Shown here piece by piece: positions 1 to 13,586 of a stretch of DNA of 64,000 nucleotides. Where the stretch lies: positions 1 to 64,000 of the forward strand of contig JAAELL010000137.1 of the NCBI GenBank assembly GCA_024226735.1, given 5' to 3'. The notes beneath the pieces were generated by a model. The model saw nothing but the letters and a program-made list of their open reading frames with translations. It made no database searches and was not told the origin of the DNA. This stretch comes from a bacterium. GTDB taxonomy: Bacteria; Planctomycetota; UBA1135; GCA-002686595. Made by a program: the position numbers and the translations under genes. Every line of letters starts with the position of its first letter. The first letter of the stretch is position 1.

Positions 1-173
1 CAGGCGGCGAGTTCACTGCGGCTCCTGGGCCGCGATTTGACATGGATTGTGGTCATGCCGCTCAGGGTGCCGCCGGGCACAGGGCCTACCAAGGGGACGC
101 TCAGGAGGCCGTCGGACGCTTACATTGGAACGGGGACTACGCTATCGATGGCGGGGGCCGGATTTGAGCACGC

Positions 174-497
174 TTGCCGGAAGGACACCGTGAGCGCGCT
201 CGCGTCGTGCTCGACGTGCAGCGCCACGTGAATCGCCTCGCGCGCGAGATCGCCGCGTCCCGCGCCCACCGCACGGCCGAGACGCACAACGAGAACTATC
301 TCGTGCTGACCGGCCAGGAGGAGTTCACGAACCCGCACACGGGAGAGGTCGAGCTCGACACGAACAACTGGGAGCACCGCTGGGTCACGCCCGATGGCAG
401 CGTGTACCTGACCGACGACGAAGACCGGGACCCGAACGTGCTTCGGGTGGCGAACCGGGACGACTTCCAGCGCTCGCCGGTTCGCAAGCGCCGGTGA
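174..497 (+). pseudogene. C-terminal fragment of an uncharacterised protein
   Basis: The codon use and charged composition look coding, but no full gene is present: the frame is closed by TGA at 165-167, and the first possible start is a TTG at 174 with no ribosome binding site. The C-terminal half carries the pattern LTGQEEFTNPHTGEVE, then EHRWV, then a short acidic stretch, ending PVRKRR. I recall similar tails at the extreme C-terminus of large proteins of unknown function, so this is probably a 3' remnant whose upstream part was lost or lies in another frame. It converges with another 3' remnant 13 bp away. It could be a short real protein, but the lack of a start signal argues against that. 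Confidence 0.45.
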
Positions 498-510
498 CGC
501 GAGCCACTGA

Positions 511-933
511 TCACCGAGGGTCACGAGCCGGAGCCGTGCCCTGTCCGTCGAAGCCGCCATACCGCTGCCGCAGCTTGGCCGTGACAGCCGTGAGGCCAGG
601 AAAGAGCAGCGCACGGTCCACGCCGATCCCCAGCAGGCTGCTCCGAATCCTCGCCCGCTGGCTCCCAGGAATACGAAGGACCTTCAGCGTGCCGGGCCAG
701 AGGTAGTGTGTAGAGGAATAGCGCGTCGGGTGCGCGGTGAAACAACTACGTTGAGCACTGATCCTGGGCACGATGTGTGGCGGGTCGTACCGGTGGATTT
801 CATCGATACCGAAGGGTTCGACTGTCGTGTCCTCCAGCCTTCCGAGGATCCTCGAGCACCATACGGCGCTGTCACACGAAACGCCGGGGTCCTCTACGGC
901 GAAGAACAAGTTCGTAGGCGCCGAGCTGGACAC
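511..933 (-). pseudogene. FRG-domain protein, 3' remnant
   Basis: The translation matches the second half of FRG-domain proteins: the motif FFAVEDPG followed by AVW, then YDPPHIVPRISAQRS with a nearby FTAHP, and a C-terminus with LRIPGSQRARIRSSL, GIGVDRALLFPGL and LRQRYG. The family's N-terminal part (the arginine/glycine-rich start of the domain) is missing, and a TGA closes the frame about 30 codons upstream of the first homologous residue, so the gene is 5'-truncated. FRG proteins are often found in prophages and defence islands, but their biochemical role is not settled. No partner gene is nearby. Confidence 0.6.
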
Positions 934-997
934 CGACCAAGAGGGGACGCCGCCACGCCGACGACGCCCCCTTCATCCAGCATTAGGCGCTACACGC

Positions 998-2515
998 CTA
1001 CAGGATGTAGCCCAGCTCCTGCGCAGGCAGGCCGAGCGTCGTGTAGTTCGGTATCGCCTGATTCATGTCGTTCAACGACAGACCGAGGATCTTGCGCAGC
1101 ATCTCGCCGAAGACAGCGCGGAAGTCGGTCGCCTGACCAACGAACGTCTTCGGGTTCGCGTTCCCGACCGGGCTGCAGCCGAAGTCGCCGTCGTTCGCGG
1201 AGAACATCCCGGGGTACGCACCACTGCCCTGGTTGCCGTTGTAGACCAGGTTGGTCCGCAGGCCCAACTGATCGAACGCCGGCTGTACGCGCGGACCGAC
1301 GGCCCAGACGCAGGTCGCGCCGCCGTGGTCGGTCCCGCCGTTGTCGTTCGCCTCGGAGGTGCGTCCGAACTCGCTGAAGACCACAACGTGCAGACTGGCG
1401 GGCTCGAACATCGGATGGGCGGCCTCGATCCCGACCGTCGTGTTGACGGCGAAGGAGATGGCCTCCAGGAGATCGAACAGCTGGCCGCTCGTGCTGCCCT
1501 GGTTGCTGTGCGTGTCGAACCCGCCCATCTCGATGCCGACGACGCGCACGCTGTCGATCTTGCGCAGGAGCCACATGGCATCCCGCAGGCGGTGGAAGAA
1601 CTCGCGCACGTCGTCGCGGTTCCGCGACAAGCCGGCTACCGTCGGCAGCGGGAAGTTGGGGTTGGTCCCGTGCCCGAACGGGTACAGCGCTCCACCGAGC
1701 GGCACGTAAGGCGCCAGCCCCGAGATCGCGCTCTCGCTCTCGAGCATCTTGAGGCCGACCTTGCGCGAGAACCCGTCGAGCGTGTGCCCCGCCTGGGCAC
1801 CCGAATCGTAGAGCGCACGCAGACCGAACCCGTTGGGCGGCGAAGCCATCGCGCTCTGCCCGCGCAGCTTGTTGTCGATCGTCGCGTTGCCCGTGTCGAG
1901 CGAATAACGCGTCTCCGCATCGTCGGGGAAGCTGAGGATCTGGCGGATGTGGGAGACGATCCGGTCCGGATTGCTGGTCGCGAACAGCTGCTGCAGGTCG
2001 GTCGAGACGCTCGCGGCGCTGAAGCCGCTCAGCGCCATCTGCTGCAGCGTGCGCGTCATCCAGCCCTCTTCGTTGTCGAAGGTGGGCGGCGTCGAGCACT
2101 GCGTGATGCCCGTCTCCCACGTCTGCTGGTCGATGAAGTGCGAGCCCGAGCGAGCCGGGTTGGCGATCGCGTTCAGGAACGCGACGTCGCCGGCATTCAT
2201 CAGCGGCTGCAGTGCGGCCATCCCCGGGTTGAGGCGGAAGAAGGTGTTGCCCGGGATCGGAAGCGTCGAGGCTGTCGGAATGAACGTCGCCTTGCGCAGG
2301 GCCATCGTGTAGCCCGGATCCATGACGGGGATCACGGAGTTGACCGCGTCGTAGCCCCCGCGCAGGTTGATCACGAGCAGCTTGTCGGTCGCGCCCCCTT
2401 GCCCGAATGCTCCGCGCGCGAGGGACGTCCGCGAGAGAGCGCCGAGAAGACCGCCCGCCATGCCGGCCTGGAGCGCCTTGCGGCGACTGAACTTCTTGTC
2501 GTTGTGGTGCGTCAT
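998..2515 (-). CDS. DUF1501 family protein, Tat-exported
   Basis: The 505-residue product starts with a twin-arginine signal (SRRKALQAGMAGGLLGA), followed by the typical DUF1501 opening LLVINLRGGYDAVN and the later conserved motifs FSEFGRTSEANDNGGTDHG and GATCVWAVGP. DUF1501 proteins have an alkaline-phosphatase/sulfatase-like fold and are thought to act outside the cytoplasm, but no reaction is established. I place the start at the ATG at 2515, 9 bases after the stop of the DUF1800 gene. A GTG at 2527 overlapping that stop as GTGA is the alternative and would add four residues. DUF1800-DUF1501 pairs are common in planctomycetes and some proteobacteria, and the two products probably work together. 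The stop codon lies in a small hairpin (984-1000, 6-bp arms). Confidence 0.9.
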   Translation of the reverse strand: MTHHNDKKFSRRKALQAGMAGGLLGALSRTSLARGAFGQGGATDKLLVINLRGGYDAVNSVIPVMDPGYTMALRKATFIPTASTLPIPGNTFFRLNPGMAALQPLMNAGDVAFLNAIANPARSGSHFIDQQTWETGITQCSTPPTFDNEEGWMTRTLQQMALSGFSAASVSTDLQQLFATSNPDRIVSHIRQILSFPDDAETRYSLDTGNATIDNKLRGQSAMASPPNGFGLRALYDSGAQAGHTLDGFSRKVGLKMLESESAISGLAPYVPLGGALYPFGHGTNPNFPLPTVAGLSRNRDDVREFFHRLRDAMWLLRKIDSVRVVGIEMGGFDTHSNQGSTSGQLFDLLEAISFAVNTTVGIEAAHPMFEPASLHVVVFSEFGRTSEANDNGGTDHGGATCVWAVGPRVQPAFDQLGLRTNLVYNGNQGSGAYPGMFSANDGDFGCSPVGNANPKTFVGQATDFRAVFGEMLRKILGLSLNDMNQAIPNYTTLGLPAQELGYIL

Positions 2516-2523
2516 CGGTGGTC

Positions 2524-4392
2524 TCACTTGTGCTGGTTGAGGGTGTGGCAGAGGCCCTTGGTGATGCCCGAGGTCAGACGCGGAATGAACCCGGCCAGTC
2601 CGGCGGCGAACTCGAGCGCCAGCGTCGTCGGTGTCAGCACGCCGTTCAGATCGGTCCGCAAGAAGTTCCAGATGTGGCCCCAGTCGGCTCCGGTCTGCCT
2701 GTTGTTCCAGGCCACGAGCGCGAAGAAGTTCGTGATGCTCGTCTCGTCGGCGAAGTTCACGACCGGCCCCAGGGTCCCGAGGTAGTCGTAGCCGAGGCTC
2801 AGCTCACCGGTCGTCGGGTGCTCGAGGAACGGGAACGGCGTCTGCGCCGTGCCGAGCGTGAAGTGCGAGTACAGCTCCTGCTTGAACCGCGTCGAGCCGA
2901 GGAACTTCAGGGTCGTGTGCAGCTTGAAGCTGTCGGTCGTCGGCCCGTCGGGCGTGGGGAAGTGGAAGTCCTTGTGTTCGACCCGCTCCTTCATCTCCCG
3001 CACGTGCGACATGCGCGTGAGCGTCGTCGCCTGCGTGCCGTCGAACGCGCGTCCTTCCATCAACGCGACGGCCTGACCCATGACCTCGATCGGCCGTCGC
3101 GCGAGGCCGAAACGGATCGTCGTATCGGTGCGGAACTGCGGCGACGTCAACAGGACCGCCAGCACGTTGGAGATGTTGCCACCCTGGTTGCCCCACACGC
3201 TGACGCACTGGAAGATCAACGGATCGGCCGGCGGCGGCTCGACCTCGGAGATGAAGAGCCTGTACAGCTTGCGCGAGATGAACTCCGCGGTCGCCGGGCT
3301 GTTGGCCATGTGCATCAGCAGCGCATCGCCCTCGCTGGTCGTGTTCGGATCCTCGAGCGCCGAGAATACGCCGACGAGCGGGTTCGTGAACGTCTGCGCG
3401 AACATCGTGTTGGTGACCGGGGGAGAGCTCGCGAAGTGCCCGCCCGTCGGCAAACCGCCCGTAAACACGGTGGGCTTGAAGAGGAACTGAATGTCCGGCA
3501 TCGCCGGGTTCAGGGAGGCGTCCTGGATCGACCAGCCGGAGAAGATCCGCGACGCGGCCAGCACGTCCTGGAAGAAGTAGTTGGGAAGGAAGATGAACCC
3601 ACCCGGTCCGACCCACGATCCCTGCGGGCTGCAGGTGTGCAGCTCGAGGAACTCGCGTCCGTAGTTCTGATCGGGCGTCGGGGCCTCGCTCGTGACACCG
3701 TTCAGGTACACGAGCATCGACGGGTGCTTGGCGTTGTAGTTCAGAAGGTCGAAGAACGTCCCCGTCGCGTTGGCGCGGAAGTGGTCGTTCTGCTCCCAGT
3801 AGAAGTACGTCGCGTAGCGGTGCGCGATCGCATCGATCTGCACTTGCGAGCCGAACGCGTACGGCGCCTGCCCGAACATGTTGCGGAAGAACCCGAACAG
3901 GCTCCTGTAGTTCGAGTTGAACAGGTCCTGGAAGAACTCCGTCAGCCGCTCGCGCAGTGGGAACGCCGAGAAGAGCTTGTAGGTGATGTTGATCTCCGAC
4001 AGCTGCTCGATCGTCAGAGTGCTGCCGAACTGCGTGATCGGCGGAGCCGCTGACCACCCGACGATCGCTTCGCCGGTTACGGGATTGATCGGAATGGGGT
4101 AGCCCTGGAGGATGTTGTTCGCCTCCGCGTTCTCGGGGATCGGCAGACCGGTCGTCTGGCTGATCCCCGTGATCTGTTCCGTGAGGAAGTCGTTGATCTG
4201 CTGGTCCTGCGTCCGCGTCGCCGTCGGGAGCAGCGGACCGTAGTCACCGAGGCCGAGGCCGTAGGTCACGCGGCGCCCGACGTGTCCTGCCAGCTCGAGC
4301 TCCGGCTGCGTGAACTGTGCTGGTGCGGTCGCGGAGAGAGCGAGCAGCAGCAGCCCGAACGGCGCCACCCTGCTGTGGAAGCGATGTCTCAT
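2524..4392 (-). CDS. DUF1800 family protein, secreted
   Basis: The product has 622 residues with a Sec-type signal peptide (RVAPFGLLLLALSATAPAQ) and then DUF1800 features: an early HVGRRVTYGLG segment, the NYGREFLELHT motif around residue 245, and LMHMANSPATAEFISRKLYRLF about 100 residues further on. The function of DUF1800 is unknown. It is consistently encoded just upstream of DUF1501, as here, and its stop overlaps or nearly touches the DUF1501 start, which indicates translational coupling. Several long inserts rich in Pro and Thr make it longer than the shortest family members. The start is the ATG at 4392; the next ATG would remove the signal peptide. Confidence 0.88.
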   Translation of the reverse strand: MRHRFHSRVAPFGLLLLALSATAPAQFTQPELELAGHVGRRVTYGLGLGDYGPLLPTATRTQDQQINDFLTEQITGISQTTGLPIPENAEANNILQGYPIPINPVTGEAIVGWSAAPPITQFGSTLTIEQLSEINITYKLFSAFPLRERLTEFFQDLFNSNYRSLFGFFRNMFGQAPYAFGSQVQIDAIAHRYATYFYWEQNDHFRANATGTFFDLLNYNAKHPSMLVYLNGVTSEAPTPDQNYGREFLELHTCSPQGSWVGPGGFIFLPNYFFQDVLAASRIFSGWSIQDASLNPAMPDIQFLFKPTVFTGGLPTGGHFASSPPVTNTMFAQTFTNPLVGVFSALEDPNTTSEGDALLMHMANSPATAEFISRKLYRLFISEVEPPPADPLIFQCVSVWGNQGGNISNVLAVLLTSPQFRTDTTIRFGLARRPIEVMGQAVALMEGRAFDGTQATTLTRMSHVREMKERVEHKDFHFPTPDGPTTDSFKLHTTLKFLGSTRFKQELYSHFTLGTAQTPFPFLEHPTTGELSLGYDYLGTLGPVVNFADETSITNFFALVAWNNRQTGADWGHIWNFLRTDLNGVLTPTTLALEFAAGLAGFIPRLTSGITKGLCHTLNQHK

Positions 4393-4645
4393 GTGTGCCT
4401 ACCTCATCGAGAATCACGGGTTGGATGGACAGGCTCCCACCGCTACGGCTCGCGCGAATGCATCGGCGAGCGCATGCGTGAGGACGGTGCGGGCCTGGCG
4501 AAGCTGTGGGCTGAGCCTCGTTGGAGGCTCCTCTACCTTCTTTGGGCGGCACCGGTGGGCGGGCAGTTCAAGGAAACCCCTGTCTTTGTCGGAGTCGTGC
4601 TCCAATGCCGGAGGTGAGTTCCCACACCTCAAGGAGGAAAGTTTG

Positions 4646-5686
4646 ATGAAGACAAAGCTCCCGTTCGGAGCGTGCGCCGCATTCGCGCTCGCTATGACAA
4701 CCGCAGACGCCCAGGTGACCCTGACTTCGCAGATGCGGCGTGTACGGGCCGTCGCCCACATCGACGATCTCGTGAACTTCGACTCGGATGCCGAAGTCGA
4801 TTGGGCGCCCGGGTTCGGGCCATTCTCGAGCCCGGTCGCGGCCACGGCATCGATCGTCGGCGGCGACACGACCGTCGGCGGATTCCAGGACTCGACGATC
4901 AGCACCAGCGCATTCCGCGCCGAAGGCAGCACGTTCGGCAGCTCGAACATCACGGGCGACCTCGTCCTGGCCGACGCGACGAGCGCTTCGATCTACGAGG
5001 TGCAGTTCTCCGTCGCGAACCCCGTCGCGTACGACTTCGTCGGTGCGCTCTCCGCGAGTGACAGCGGGAGCGTCAGCGTCTCCGTGCGGACGGCGGCCGG
5101 TGACTTCCTGTTCGGCGCGGCTGCGATCACCAACGAGCAGGCGGACGTCGACCTGTTCGGGACCCTCCCGTCGGGCGACTACGTCTATCTGATCCGCGCG
5201 TTCTCGAGCATCTATGCGACGGCCTTCAGCCCCGACTTCTCCTTCAGCGACTACTGCCTCAGCTTCGAGCTGCGTGACGAGCTCGGCACGCGCTTCTGCT
5301 CGGCGGTTCCGAACTCGACGGGCATGGCCGGACGCATGAGCGTCAGCGGCTCGGCCGTCGTGGCGGACGACCACCTCATCCTCCAGGCCACCGACCTACC
5401 CACGGTTTCGAACAACGGCTACTTCCTGATGGGAACCGGGATGGGAATGACCGTCCCTCCCGGCAGCGCGGGCCCGATCTGCCTCGCGGGGAACATCCTG
5501 CGCATCTTCCCGCCCCTGTTGGATACGGCGGACCTGCCCGGCGGCTTCCAGCTCGAGGCCGGCACGGGAGGACCCATCACCGGCGCGATCACGGCGGGCA
5601 GCACATGGAACTTCCAGGCCTGGCACCGCGACGCGAGCGCGGGAGCGTCCAATTTCACGGACGCCGTCAGCGTGACCTTCCTGTGA
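4646..5686 (+). CDS. secreted protein with lineage-specific C-terminal module
   Basis: The protein has 346 residues. The start is fixed by a strong ribosome binding site, AAGGAGG at 4631-4637, and a signal peptide (MKTKLPFGACAAFALAMTTADA) follows immediately. Residues 25-215 form an uncharacterised all-beta-looking domain rich in Ser, Asp and Gly. The last 130 residues begin FCSAVPNSTG and end WNFQAWHRD...NFTDAVSVTF at the extreme C-terminus. This ending is shared with three other loci in the window (12552-13586, 14529-14888 and 30880-33813), so it is a mobile C-terminal module. An inverted repeat (GAGGTG/CACCTC, 4612-4631) sits directly in front of the ribosome binding site and could affect translation. 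No enzymatic motif is visible. Confidence 0.8.
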   Translation: MKTKLPFGACAAFALAMTTADAQVTLTSQMRRVRAVAHIDDLVNFDSDAEVDWAPGFGPFSSPVAATASIVGGDTTVGGFQDSTISTSAFRAEGSTFGSSNITGDLVLADATSASIYEVQFSVANPVAYDFVGALSASDSGSVSVSVRTAAGDFLFGAAAITNEQADVDLFGTLPSGDYVYLIRAFSSIYATAFSPDFSFSDYCLSFELRDELGTRFCSAVPNSTGMAGRMSVSGSAVVADDHLILQATDLPTVSNNGYFLMGTGMGMTVPPGSAGPICLAGNILRIFPPLLDTADLPGGFQLEAGTGGPITGAITAGSTWNFQAWHRDASAGASNFTDAVSVTFL

Positions 5687-9774: not shown

Positions 9775-11841
9775 ATGAAACCCTTCCACGAGCTCTCAAC
9801 CTCCATGGGGCTGGCCCTCAGCGGCCTCTGCCTCGTTCTTCCGGCCACGGCGGCCTGGGGCCAGACCATCGACGACGACCTGGGATCCGCGCCTTCCGTC
9901 GCCTCGGTCCAGGGCAAGCTGCACCTGCGATCGCACGACGTCGACGTCGTGATCAACAACGGCTTCGCGACGACGACGATCGACCAGGTGCTCGCCAATC
10001 CGACCGACCGAGCCCTCGAAGCGACATGGTCCTTCCCCTTGCCCGACGAAGCTTCCTTGTCCGAGCTCTCGATGTGGGTCGGCGGGACGCGCGTGATCGG
10101 CGAGGTCATCGAGAAGGGGGAAGCCCAACGCATCTACGAAGAGGAGAGGAAAGCGGGCGAGTCCGCGGCCCTGGCGGAGCGCAACGGCTTCTTCGACTAC
10201 CGCGTCTCCGTCAGCCGCGTGCCCGCCCAAGGCGAGGTCAAGGTGCGGGTCGTGTACTACCAGCCGCTCGACATCGATCAAGGCGTCGGACGCTACCTCT
10301 ATCCGCTGCAGAACGGCAACACCGATGATGCGAACATGAACCAGTCCTTCTGGTCCATGGAGAAGGAGGTCACCGGGGGGATGACGATCGACGTCACGCT
10401 CAAGACGGCCTTTCCAATCGACGGGCTGCACTCGCCGAGCCACGCCGCGCTGACGACGGGGCTCGAGTCCGAGGAGCTGTGGCGGGCGAGCTGGCAGGGC
10501 ACGGGGCCGGTGCTCGACCGCGACTTTGTCCTGCTGTACCGCCTGGCCGAGGACGTGCCGGCGCGCATCGAGCTCTTGACCAGCCGCTACGCCGACCAGG
10601 GTGAGGGTACGTTCATGGCCGTCATCACGCCCGGCGACGACCTTCAGGAGATCACGCACGGGACCGACTGGATGTTCGTCGTCGACGTCTCGGGCTCGAT
10701 GGCCGGCGACAAACTGCGCGTCTCGAGCCAGGGCGTCGTCCAGGCGATGGAGTCCCTCCGACCCGAAGACCGGTTCCAGGTGATCCAGTTCGCAACCAAC
10801 CACCGAGTACTCACGCGCGACTGGGTCCAGCCGGGCACGAGCGAGGCGCGCGCGGCCGCCCTCGCCGTGTCCAACCTTCAGACGGCGGGAAGCACCAACC
10901 TCTTCGGTGCGCTCGACGCCGCGTACGAGCGGCTCGACGCTGATCGCCCGACCGCGATCATCCTGGTCAGCGACGGCGTCGCGAACACCGGACCGCACGA
11001 GTACCGCGACTTCATCAAGATGGCGAAGGCGCACGACGCACGCCTGTTCACGTTCGTGATCGGCAACAGCGCGAACGCACGCCTGTTGGGCGACCTGGCG
11101 TCGCTGTCCGGCGGATTCGCGAAAACGGTCTCCGTCCAAGACGAAGTCGGCGCGCACCTGATGCTCGCGCGGGATCGGATGTCGCACGAAGCCATGCACG
11201 GCGTCCGCTTCCGCATGGATGGCAAGACGGTCGTGCACCCCAAGCGCAAGCCGAGCCTGTACCTCGGCCAGCAGCTCGTCCTCTTCGGCCGCTACGAGAA
11301 AAGCGGTGCGAGCGAGCTGAGCGTCAGCGCCCGCATCTCCGGCGAAGAACGCACGTGGACCGTCCCGGTCGAGCTCCCCGCGATCGACGAGGCCAACCCG
11401 GAGCTCGAACGGCTCTACGCGATGGCGGCAATCGCCGACCTGGAGCGTGCGGAGTGGCTCGACGGCAAGAGCGCCGGTGAGACGCGAAGCGCGATCACCG
11501 ACATGGCCGTCCAGTACAGCTTGGTGACCGATCACACGTCGATGGTCGTCGTCGCCGAAGGACGCAAGGCCGCTTACGGTCTGGGAAACGCCAACGCCGA
11601 CCGTCGCGCGCGCGAGCAAGACGCCGCGCGCACGCGGGCCCAAGCCGGCAACCAGGTGCAGGTTCAGACCGGTGGCGCACCGCTCGGCGGATCGCGTTCC
11701 GCCCATGCGCCCAGCCGCGCACGCAAGCGCGGCCGCAGCGGAGGCGGCGGCGGGGGTGCGCTCGGTCCGGTCGAGCTCCTCGGCATCGCGGGCCTCGTCG
11801 CCCTCGGACTCTCGGGACGCAAGCGGGGCAGACGCGCGTGA
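9775..11841 (+). CDS. VIT and VWA domain protein with GlyGly-CTERM-like tail
   Basis: The protein has 688 residues. The start is set by AAAGGAG 6 bases upstream and by the signal peptide ending AAWGQ. A VIT domain spans residues 45-165 (QVLANPTDRALEATWSFPLP), and a von Willebrand A domain begins near residue 298 with the complete MIDAS start DVSGS at 303-307. The C-terminus is a sorting-type tail: an Arg-rich linker, SGGGGGG, one hydrophobic helix (VELLGIAGLVALGL) and a basic end GRKRGRRA. That pattern matches GlyGly-CTERM signals cleaved by rhombosortases, and the next gene, overlapping by 4 bases, is a rhombosortase. The mature protein is therefore probably cut from its membrane anchor and presented at the surface or secreted, where the VWA domain could bind metal-dependent ligands. 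Confidence 0.88.
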   Translation: MKPFHELSTSMGLALSGLCLVLPATAAWGQTIDDDLGSAPSVASVQGKLHLRSHDVDVVINNGFATTTIDQVLANPTDRALEATWSFPLPDEASLSELSMWVGGTRVIGEVIEKGEAQRIYEEERKAGESAALAERNGFFDYRVSVSRVPAQGEVKVRVVYYQPLDIDQGVGRYLYPLQNGNTDDANMNQSFWSMEKEVTGGMTIDVTLKTAFPIDGLHSPSHAALTTGLESEELWRASWQGTGPVLDRDFVLLYRLAEDVPARIELLTSRYADQGEGTFMAVITPGDDLQEITHGTDWMFVVDVSGSMAGDKLRVSSQGVVQAMESLRPEDRFQVIQFATNHRVLTRDWVQPGTSEARAAALAVSNLQTAGSTNLFGALDAAYERLDADRPTAIILVSDGVANTGPHEYRDFIKMAKAHDARLFTFVIGNSANARLLGDLASLSGGFAKTVSVQDEVGAHLMLARDRMSHEAMHGVRFRMDGKTVVHPKRKPSLYLGQQLVLFGRYEKSGASELSVSARISGEERTWTVPVELPAIDEANPELERLYAMAAIADLERAEWLDGKSAGETRSAITDMAVQYSLVTDHTSMVVVAEGRKAAYGLGNANADRRAREQDAARTRAQAGNQVQVQTGGAPLGGSRSAHAPSRARKRGRSGGGGGGALGPVELLGIAGLVALGLSGRKRGRRA

Positions 11842-12443
11842 AACGCGTCGCGGACAACCTGCTTCCGCGCCTGGGATGCGCCGCTGCTCTGGCCCTCGCG
11901 GCCTGGGCGGCCGGCGCGCATTCCGACGTCTTCGTCCTCGAACGCGCAGCCCTGGAACGCGGCGAGCTCTGGCGCCTGTGGACGGGGCATCTCGTCCACG
12001 GCAACGGCACACACTACGCCTACGACGTCGGCGCGGCGGCGCTCCTGTTCTGCGCGTTCGGGCCCGCGCTGCGGCTCCTCTGGATGGCGCCGGTGATCGG
12101 AGTGGGACTTCTGGTTTCCCAGCCGGACGTGGAGCACTACTACGGTCTCTCCGCATGGCTGCACGCGTGGGTCGTCGCGGCGTGCGCGGACGAGGCTCTC
12201 GCGTCACGCGGCCACAGGCGAATCCTGGCGGCGGCGCTCTTGCTCGGGGCACTCGCGAAAGCGACGTGGGAGGCCCGGCTCGGAGCCTCGGTGTTCACCT
12301 CCGAGCTCGATTTCGGCGGTCCGGTGCTGCATGCATCGCACCTGGTCGGCGCCCTCGTCGGGCTCCTGCCGCTCCTGCAGCGCGCACTCTGGACCGATCG
12401 ACGACGGGGAGGCGGTGCAATCTGTCGGGACGCTCTACCCTGA
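11838..12443 (+). CDS. rhombosortase (rhomboid-family sorting peptidase)
   Basis: The 201-residue membrane protein starts at a GTG overlapping the previous stop as GTGA, so translation is coupled. It has the features of rhombosortases: LWRLWTGHLVHGNGTHYAYD in the first loop, the nucleophile motif YYGLSAWLHA with Ser at 105, and HASHLVGAL with candidate catalytic His at 165 or 168, spread over about six hydrophobic helices. It lacks the extra domains of ordinary rhomboids. Its expected substrate is the GlyGly-type tail of the neighbouring VIT/VWA protein. No other GlyGly-CTERM tail is visible in the window, which suggests a dedicated pair, although substrates elsewhere in the genome cannot be excluded. 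Confidence 0.85.
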   Translation: MKRVADNLLPRLGCAAALALAAWAAGAHSDVFVLERAALERGELWRLWTGHLVHGNGTHYAYDVGAAALLFCAFGPALRLLWMAPVIGVGLLVSQPDVEHYYGLSAWLHAWVVAACADEALASRGHRRILAAALLLGALAKATWEARLGASVFTSELDFGGPVLHASHLVGALVGLLPLLQRALWTDRRRGGGAICRDALP

Positions 12444-12551: not shown

Positions 12552-13586
12552 ATGAGACTCGCTCACATCTCCATCTGCTTCGCCCTCACAGCGCCCGCCG
12601 GCGCCCAGTTCTCTGTCTCGGGCGGCGGCGACGTCATCCCCGACCACGGCGGCGGCTGGGACTTCAACAACGTCGACCACGCCTTCTTCGACTTCGGCGA
12701 AGCCTCCGTCTTCGTCCCCGAAGCCGTGCACTGCATCGACTCGGTTACGATCGAGGATCTCGCGCACCCCTGGGTCGGCGACATCATGTTCGTGCTGCGC
12801 GATCCCGTCGGCGTCGGACACGTGCTGACGCTCCGGCCCCGGCTCCTGTTCGGCGCGAGCTTCGGCTGCAACGACACGGTGTCAGGTGAGTTCACCTTCG
12901 TCGCGCCCGGCACGTCGGCCGCGGGTCCCATGCACGCGAATTGCCCCGGCTCTCTCTTCCCGGGGACGTACGACCAGGCTTGGGACACGGGCGCGGGCAT
13001 CACCTGGCCCGAGGGTGACGAGAACACCTTCGGCACGCCGATGAACGAGATCTCGGGTCCGGCCGGCCACTGGACGCTCGAGATCCACGACTTCGCGGGC
13101 CCCGACGCGGGGCGCTGGTCCGCTTGGACCTTGAACGGCAACCGCTGCAAGGTTGGTACGAGCTACTGCGGCCCGGCAGCGAACAACTCGACGGGACAGA
13201 GCGGCACCATCTCCGCGATCGGAAGCGCCGCGATCCTCGACAACGACGTCCGCCTCGTCGCGAGCGCGTTGCCCCCCGGACAGTTCGGGATCTTCCTCGC
13301 CGGCCCCGGTCAGATGACGACCATGCCCGCGACGAGCTGCGGAACGTTCTGCCTGGACGGCGGCGACCCGGCGCTACTGGGTCGCTTCCTGCAGGACCTG
13401 TTCACCGTTCCGGCCAATGGCTCCGCCTCGCTCGCGATCGACTTGACCGCGATCCCGACGGGTGGAGCCCCCATGGCGCTCGTTCCCGGAGACACCTGGA
13501 ACTTCCAGGCGTGGCACCGCGACGACAGTCAGTTCTGCGCGCAGGCCAACAACTTCACGGACGCGGTCTCGATCGTGTTCCAGTAA
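12552..13586 (+). CDS. secreted protein, P-domain-like plus C-terminal module
   Basis: The protein has 344 residues and a short signal peptide (ISICFALTAPAGA). Residues 40-195 resemble the proprotein convertase P-domain: an opening strand pair containing DSVTIEDLAHPWVGDIMF, LRDPVG, then a closing GHWTLEIHDFAGPDAG with WTLNG. P-domains are beta-sandwiches found in secreted proteins, often with Ca2+. Residues 203-344 are the recurrent C-terminal module (YCGPAANNSTG to NNFTDAVSIVFQ). No protease domain is attached, so a binding or structural role is more likely than catalysis. The ATG has only a weak ribosome binding site. The gene ends 20 bp before a converging broken gene. Confidence 0.8.
   Translation: MRLAHISICFALTAPAGAQFSVSGGGDVIPDHGGGWDFNNVDHAFFDFGEASVFVPEAVHCIDSVTIEDLAHPWVGDIMFVLRDPVGVGHVLTLRPRLLFGASFGCNDTVSGEFTFVAPGTSAAGPMHANCPGSLFPGTYDQAWDTGAGITWPEGDENTFGTPMNEISGPAGHWTLEIHDFAGPDAGRWSAWTLNGNRCKVGTSYCGPAANNSTGQSGTISAIGSAAILDNDVRLVASALPPGQFGIFLAGPGQMTTMPATSCGTFCLDGGDPALLGRFLQDLFTVPANGSASLAIDLTAIPTGGAPMALVPGDTWNFQAWHRDDSQFCAQANNFTDAVSIVFQ

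Follow-up and report, generated by a model that had tools for sequence, protein, structure and literature searches.

A VIT/VWA protein with a GlyGly-type tail and its adjacent rhombosortase as a probable dedicated processing pair in a planctomycete

The window, that is, the whole analysed stretch of 64,000 nucleotides of planctomycete DNA, very probably contains a two-gene C-terminal processing cassette, in which a dedicated rhombosortase would remove the tail of its neighbour's product; the cleavage is proposed by analogy with RssP of Vibrio cholerae. Coordinates, reading frames, the GTGA overlap, the GLSAWLHA segment and the late His residues are found in the sequence as the first-pass annotation of this DNA had given them. 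The features of the pair are as follows.

9775..11841, + strand: predicted substrate, a VIT/VWA protein of 688 aa (Pfam VIT and VWA_3; from an ATG start to a TGA stop)
9775..9864, + strand: signal peptide region (...LCLVLPATAAWGQ; covers about residues 1-30, with the hydrophobic window at 7-28; cleavage site placed by eye)
9925..10257, + strand: VIT domain, residues 51-161 (PF08487, 92.8 bits, E=1.9e-26)
10672..11124, + strand: VWA domain, residues 300-450 (PF13768, 63.3 bits, E=3.5e-17)
residues 304-308 of the VIT/VWA protein, inside the VWA domain, + strand: MIDAS-type motif DVSGS (by motif position)
11737..11838, + strand: C-terminal sorting tail, residues 655-688 (leave-window-out tail model; alignment with partner tails)
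11838..11841, + strand: GTGA overlap of the VIT/VWA stop codon and the rhombosortase GTG start (sequence)
11838..12443, + strand: rhombosortase of 201 aa, an intramembrane serine protease of the rhomboid family (TIGR03902; AlphaFold model)
11970..11984, + strand: WRLWT motif, loop L1, residues 45-49 (fits the rhombosortase WRxxS/T signature)
12150..12164, + strand: catalytic Ser105 with His109 at +4 (SAWLH; rhombosortase signature position)
12339..12341, + strand: catalytic His168 (SHLVGALVG; AHxxGxxxG motif of TM6; alignment)

An overlap of 4 bases or 1 base is also present in several homologous pairs, and a promoter and terminator scan gave nothing above chance level. Elsewhere in the window, the secreted proteins encoded at 12552-13586 and 4310-5686 have C-terminal regions that look alike by eye in the list of open reading frames (NSTGQSG/NSTGMAG ... 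FTDAVSIVF/FTDAVSVTF), which is probably a repeated domain.

The assignment of the upstream product as a VIT/VWA protein with an SGGGGGG-helix-basic tail is confirmed by its Pfam domains and by hydropathy, since a 15-residue mean above 1.6 is reached in the tail and the signal peptide only. The tail, GRSGGGGGGALGPVELLGIAGLVALGLSGRKRGRRA, consists of SGGGGGG, a hydrophobic stretch including Pro665, and the basic end RKRGRRA. Haft and Varghese, who named both enzyme and tail in 2011, define GlyGly-CTERM by an extreme C-terminal Gly motif without Cys, a transmembrane stretch and a basic cluster, on a protein that has a signal peptide and no further transmembrane segment (PMC3237569); by sequence, hydropathy and homology to partner tails, the VIT/VWA protein falls within this tripartite definition. 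The glycine/hydrophobic/basic layout is common, upon alignment, to the window protein and the partners of related rhombosortases, and the protein shares 57% identity with the tailed VIT/VWA protein that partners the rhombosortase in genome G338. The window tail is absent from the matches of the library GlyGly model TIGR03501 up to E=10. A tail model made from 27 homologous tails, with the window left out, ranks the window tail first (E=0.006), and a model including it returns the tail at E=4e-9.

The first-pass annotation had made the rhombosortase identity of the downstream product dependent on a match to the family HMM, and such a match exists: the 201-residue protein scores 102.8 bits with TIGR03902, the curated equivalog cut-off being 84, while its score with the generic Rhomboid model PF01694 is below that model's cut-off. 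Of 122 aligned sequences, 121 have the catalytic serine (Ser105) and 120 the catalytic histidine (His168); W45, R46 and T49 are invariant in 37 sequences. The signatures WRxxS/T, SxxxH and AHxxGxxxG described by Haft and Varghese (PMC3237569) take the form WRLWT, SAWLH and SHxxGxxxG in the window enzyme. The best PDB matches of the AlphaFold model (pLDDT 90.4, pTM 0.84) are the GlpG proteins of E. coli and H. influenzae, with probability 1.00 and a TM score of about 0.5-0.65; with Foldseek E-values no better than about 0.006, the sequence match weighs more than the fold match. As modelled, the window enzyme folds like GlpG and has the rhomboid dyad of Ser (TM4) and His (TM6) intact.

The source genome is a draft of 9.0 Mb in 612 contigs, 88.8% complete, and contains one rhombosortase above the TIGR03902 cut-off. 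The next best match reaches 30.7 bits, and such weak matches, being far under the cut-off, were discarded as not being rhombosortases. TIGR03501 found no tail above its cut-off in the genome, its sole match not being C-terminal, which says little because that model misses the window tail, too. With the two home-made tail models, no other match combining a glycine motif with an end-of-frame position was obtained among the scored first-look candidates (150 of 300 for the model including the window, 150 of 495 for the 27-tail model); as these are half and then a third of the candidates, the negative result is support, not proof. Thus, the many further GlyGly-type tails which, according to the first-pass annotation, would speak against dedication were not found in this 88.8%-complete draft with part of the candidates scored. 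Three VIT/VWA paralogues that were read over their full length, on contigs C89, C426 and C108, have no such tail and no adjacent rhombosortase; for a fourth match, on C171, the gene is not cleanly resolved. The C89 paralogue (L099, G000:C89:7223-8989) has a lipoprotein-like signal and no sorting tail, and scores far higher than the window VIT/VWA protein with the marine sortase target model (468 bits). A distant rhombotarget-like lipoprotein of the genome (38 bits, cut-off 150) is also devoid of a tail.

Within a draft genome and partly scored candidates, the combination by which dedicated pairs are recognized, namely one rhombosortase, one target and adjacent genes (PMC3237569), is provisionally present. 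The neighbouring VIT/VWA protein is likely the single substrate of the window rhombosortase, which appears to be dedicated to it as in other single-target genomes. That the enzyme is a genuine rhombosortase serving further proteins, whose genes are unassembled or whose tails have diverged, is unlikely. The incompleteness of the draft, the partial scoring and the shortness of the tails, of which TIGR03501 misses even that of the window, leave room for it; against it stand the first rank given to the window tail by the leave-window-out model, the want of any other C-terminal glycine-motif match, and the association of gene adjacency with single-target genomes, adjacency being absent in other multi-target genomes (PMC3237569).

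Pairs of this kind have been described before. Haft and Varghese reported 21 single-target genomes, 16 of them with the two genes no more than one apart; Rhodopirellula baltica SH1 is entered in their Table 3 among the single-target genomes whose two genes are adjacent, and members of the VIT/VWA family with tails of the GlyGly, LPXTG and PEP types appear in their Fig. 3C (PMC3237569). The first-pass view that a one-substrate pair was undescribed for planctomycetes is contradicted by these data, and the idea that a rhombosortase can take over from a sortase within one protein family has been in print since 2011. The window pair shares with the published pairs, the planctomycete example included, one rhombosortase and one tailed product of an adjacent gene, but the R. 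baltica partner is not stated to be a VIT/VWA protein (PMC3237569), and the window tail is one that TIGR03501 misses. With RssP and VesB of V. cholerae it has in common the enzyme family, with catalytic Ser in TM4 and His in TM6, and a substrate with glycine motif, helix and basic tail (PMC6219818, PMC11389362); RssP, however, takes several secreted substrates, whereas the window enzyme has its one VIT/VWA neighbour. The marine Gram-negative sortase cassette (TIGR03784/TIGR03788) also places a VIT/VWA substrate beside a dedicated C-terminal processing enzyme, but it relies on an LPXTG tail and a cysteine transpeptidase instead of a glycine tail and a rhomboid serine protease. In the window pair the rhombosortase fills the place of the sortase in that cassette, as had been suggested: the window protein scores 227.5 bits with marine_srt_targ TIGR03788, the threshold being 551.65, and no Sortase domain (PF04203) was found in the genome. 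The pair of a rhombotarget lipoprotein (TIGR04179) and a rhombosortase, which is present in several relatives of this genome, is likewise an adjacent arrangement of tailed substrate and enzyme; there, in place of the VIT/VWA protein, the substrate is a lipoprotein of about 260-310 aa that is unrelated to it.

For a survey of the phylum, 101 relatives and 392 genomes spread over the planctomycetes were searched and the surroundings and neighbouring genes of the loci obtained were read, with the 45 planctomycete proteins inside the rhombosortase part of the tree as base. The comparison of neighbourhoods that the first-pass annotation had proposed revealed a tailed VIT/VWA gene beside 34 of these 45 (33 immediately upstream, one at a distance of one gene); seven have a rhombotarget lipoprotein (TIGR04179) as partner, two are located at contig ends, and two (G300, G161) are partnerless. 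Among 23 other rhomboid loci, taken as control, none had a VIT/VWA or rhombotarget partner within 1.5 kb, which argues that the adjacency is not due to chance. The tailed VIT/VWA pair is the usual partner arrangement of planctomycete rhombosortases. Outside the phylum, a scan of contigs with the window enzyme as sole query gave no matches, whereas an alignment of diverse enzymes worked as query. The scan of named genomes yielded 80 loci, 39 of them with a VIT/VWA gene adjoining the enzyme, a fraction biased by a search pattern derived from mostly VIT-paired planctomycete enzymes; the breadth is unaffected and comprises Gamma-, Alpha- and Betaproteobacteria, Myxococcota, Thermodesulfobacteriota and Verrucomicrobiota. 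A glycine-tailed VIT/VWA gene is located closely upstream of about 30 non-planctomycete rhombosortases. One locus of the scan, L149, is identical with that of G032, a member of the window's family, and bears the label Planctomycetota in the public record, in support of the assignment to this phylum.

Other arrangements were encountered in the course of the survey. The rhombotarget lipoprotein pair is the second planctomycete type (L036, L037, L040, L043, L044, L122, L134), and genome G027 has one pair of each type. At L136 (G396:C138, about 1-3600), a frame of 962 aa ends in 11 glycines in a row followed by a hydrophobic stretch and a weakly basic terminus, and just downstream of it lies a rhomboid that has Tyr at Ser+4 and falls outside the rhombosortase clade; this is possibly another pair of tail and enzyme. 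The rhombosortases of Opitutia (Verrucomicrobiota) form a clade of their own (L174, L181, L187, L201, L206, L217, L222) and are preceded by large proteins that belong to other families and have tails of the GGGGGG-APSLWF type.

The residue at Ser+4 was reported to be His in virtually all rhombosortases (PMC3237569). In aligned counts over the rhombosortases of L035-L044, L103-L142 and L151-L222, His is found in 17 of 22 Pseudomonadota enzymes without an adjacent partner and Asn in 22 of 23 VIT-paired ones, while the VIT-paired enzymes of Planctomycetota have Ser in 21 and His in four of 34 cases. The window enzyme retains His, as do two of the three sister enzymes. No demonstration was obtained that Ser+4 would track the partner type independently of descent; the pattern follows clades, and a tree-based test had too few independent pairs. 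We offer tentatively, and with somewhat less than even confidence, the view that VIT-paired rhombosortases are distinct one-substrate branches over several phyla, co-inherited with their substrate as a two-gene unit, with Ser+4 retuned to Asn in Pseudomonadota or to Ser/Thr/Cys in Planctomycetota and possibly setting specificity.

As regards descent, the window enzyme clusters with those of G310, G338 and G279, which belong to another family (support 98/93), and the VIT/VWA protein clusters with the same three genomes (SH-aLRT 100); the shared sister genomes imply that the two genes travel together. Identity of the VIT/VWA protein is 51-57% to the proteins of G310, G338 and G279 versus about 37-40% to those of its own family, and an AU test rejects a tree that holds it together with the same-family pairs of G032, G027 and G045 (p = 8e-45, an indicative value, as the grouping was picked after the BLAST results). 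The window pair was probably acquired from a distant planctomycete lineage or is shared with it through differential loss.

Against this background, it is very improbable that the tail simply anchors the protein in the membrane without being cleaved, the rhomboid working on another target. Glycine-rich linkers do often precede anchors, and cleavage in planctomycetes is extrapolated from V. cholerae, but tail and adjacent rhombosortase co-occur at some 34 loci in planctomycetes and some 30 elsewhere, and the three fully read VIT/VWA paralogues have neither. An accidental neighbourhood of functionally unrelated genes can practically be dismissed, given an adjacency that recurs across families and phyla, is not seen beside control rhomboids (0/23) and goes along with sister genomes shared by both genes.

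For the favoured reading, that is, processing of the VIT/VWA protein by its neighbour, the following scenario can be drawn. As far as can be read from the sequence, the signal peptide would export the VIT/VWA protein, and the hydrophobic stretch and basic cluster of the tail would halt it in the inner membrane with the glycine motif on the periplasmic side; the overlapping downstream gene would supply a rhombosortase with intact Ser105/His168 dyad. In V. cholerae, the cut made by RssP leaves the motif's second glycine exposed, and this residue carries a glycerophosphoethanolamine-containing group (PMC6219818); the cleavage site is intramembrane and needs a helix-breaking residue and leucine (PMC11389362). 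The window tail is RssP-like in its glycine run, its early proline in the hydrophobic stretch and the leucines following it. By analogy with RssP and VesB, the window enzyme would cut inside the glycine motif where the helix begins, close to the helix-breaking Pro665, leaving a new C-terminal glycine that would either be free or become attached to a lipid headgroup containing ethanolamine. Going further, the mature protein would leave the inner membrane and act at or outside the outer membrane. Tail and RssP suffice for membrane association, and outer-membrane export needs a second signal (PMC13393428). A secretin-like protein of the genome matches GspD over its length with 316 bits, below the cut-off of 351, so that the route of outer-membrane export is uncertain. 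Eventually, the mature protein would probably function in metal-dependent adhesion or in matrix binding, a role suggested only by the likeness of its VIT/VWA part to inter-alpha-trypsin inhibitor heavy chains.

Summarizing, the single window locus is one more case of an already described kind. PMC3237569 was the only publication found to mention rhombosortase together with planctomycetes, and the extent of the VIT/VWA pair in this phylum and the Ser+4 pattern were not found in the literature; added here are the co-inheritance of both genes, the sister relation to pairs of a distant family and the Ser+4 pattern. The VIT/VWA and rhombosortase cassette is the usual setting of the enzyme in planctomycetes, a phylum for which no experimental work on the pathway was found, and its one-substrate pairs offer a clean system in which to ask how rhomboids choose their substrates and whether the tail is hydrolysed or the protein is joined to lipid.
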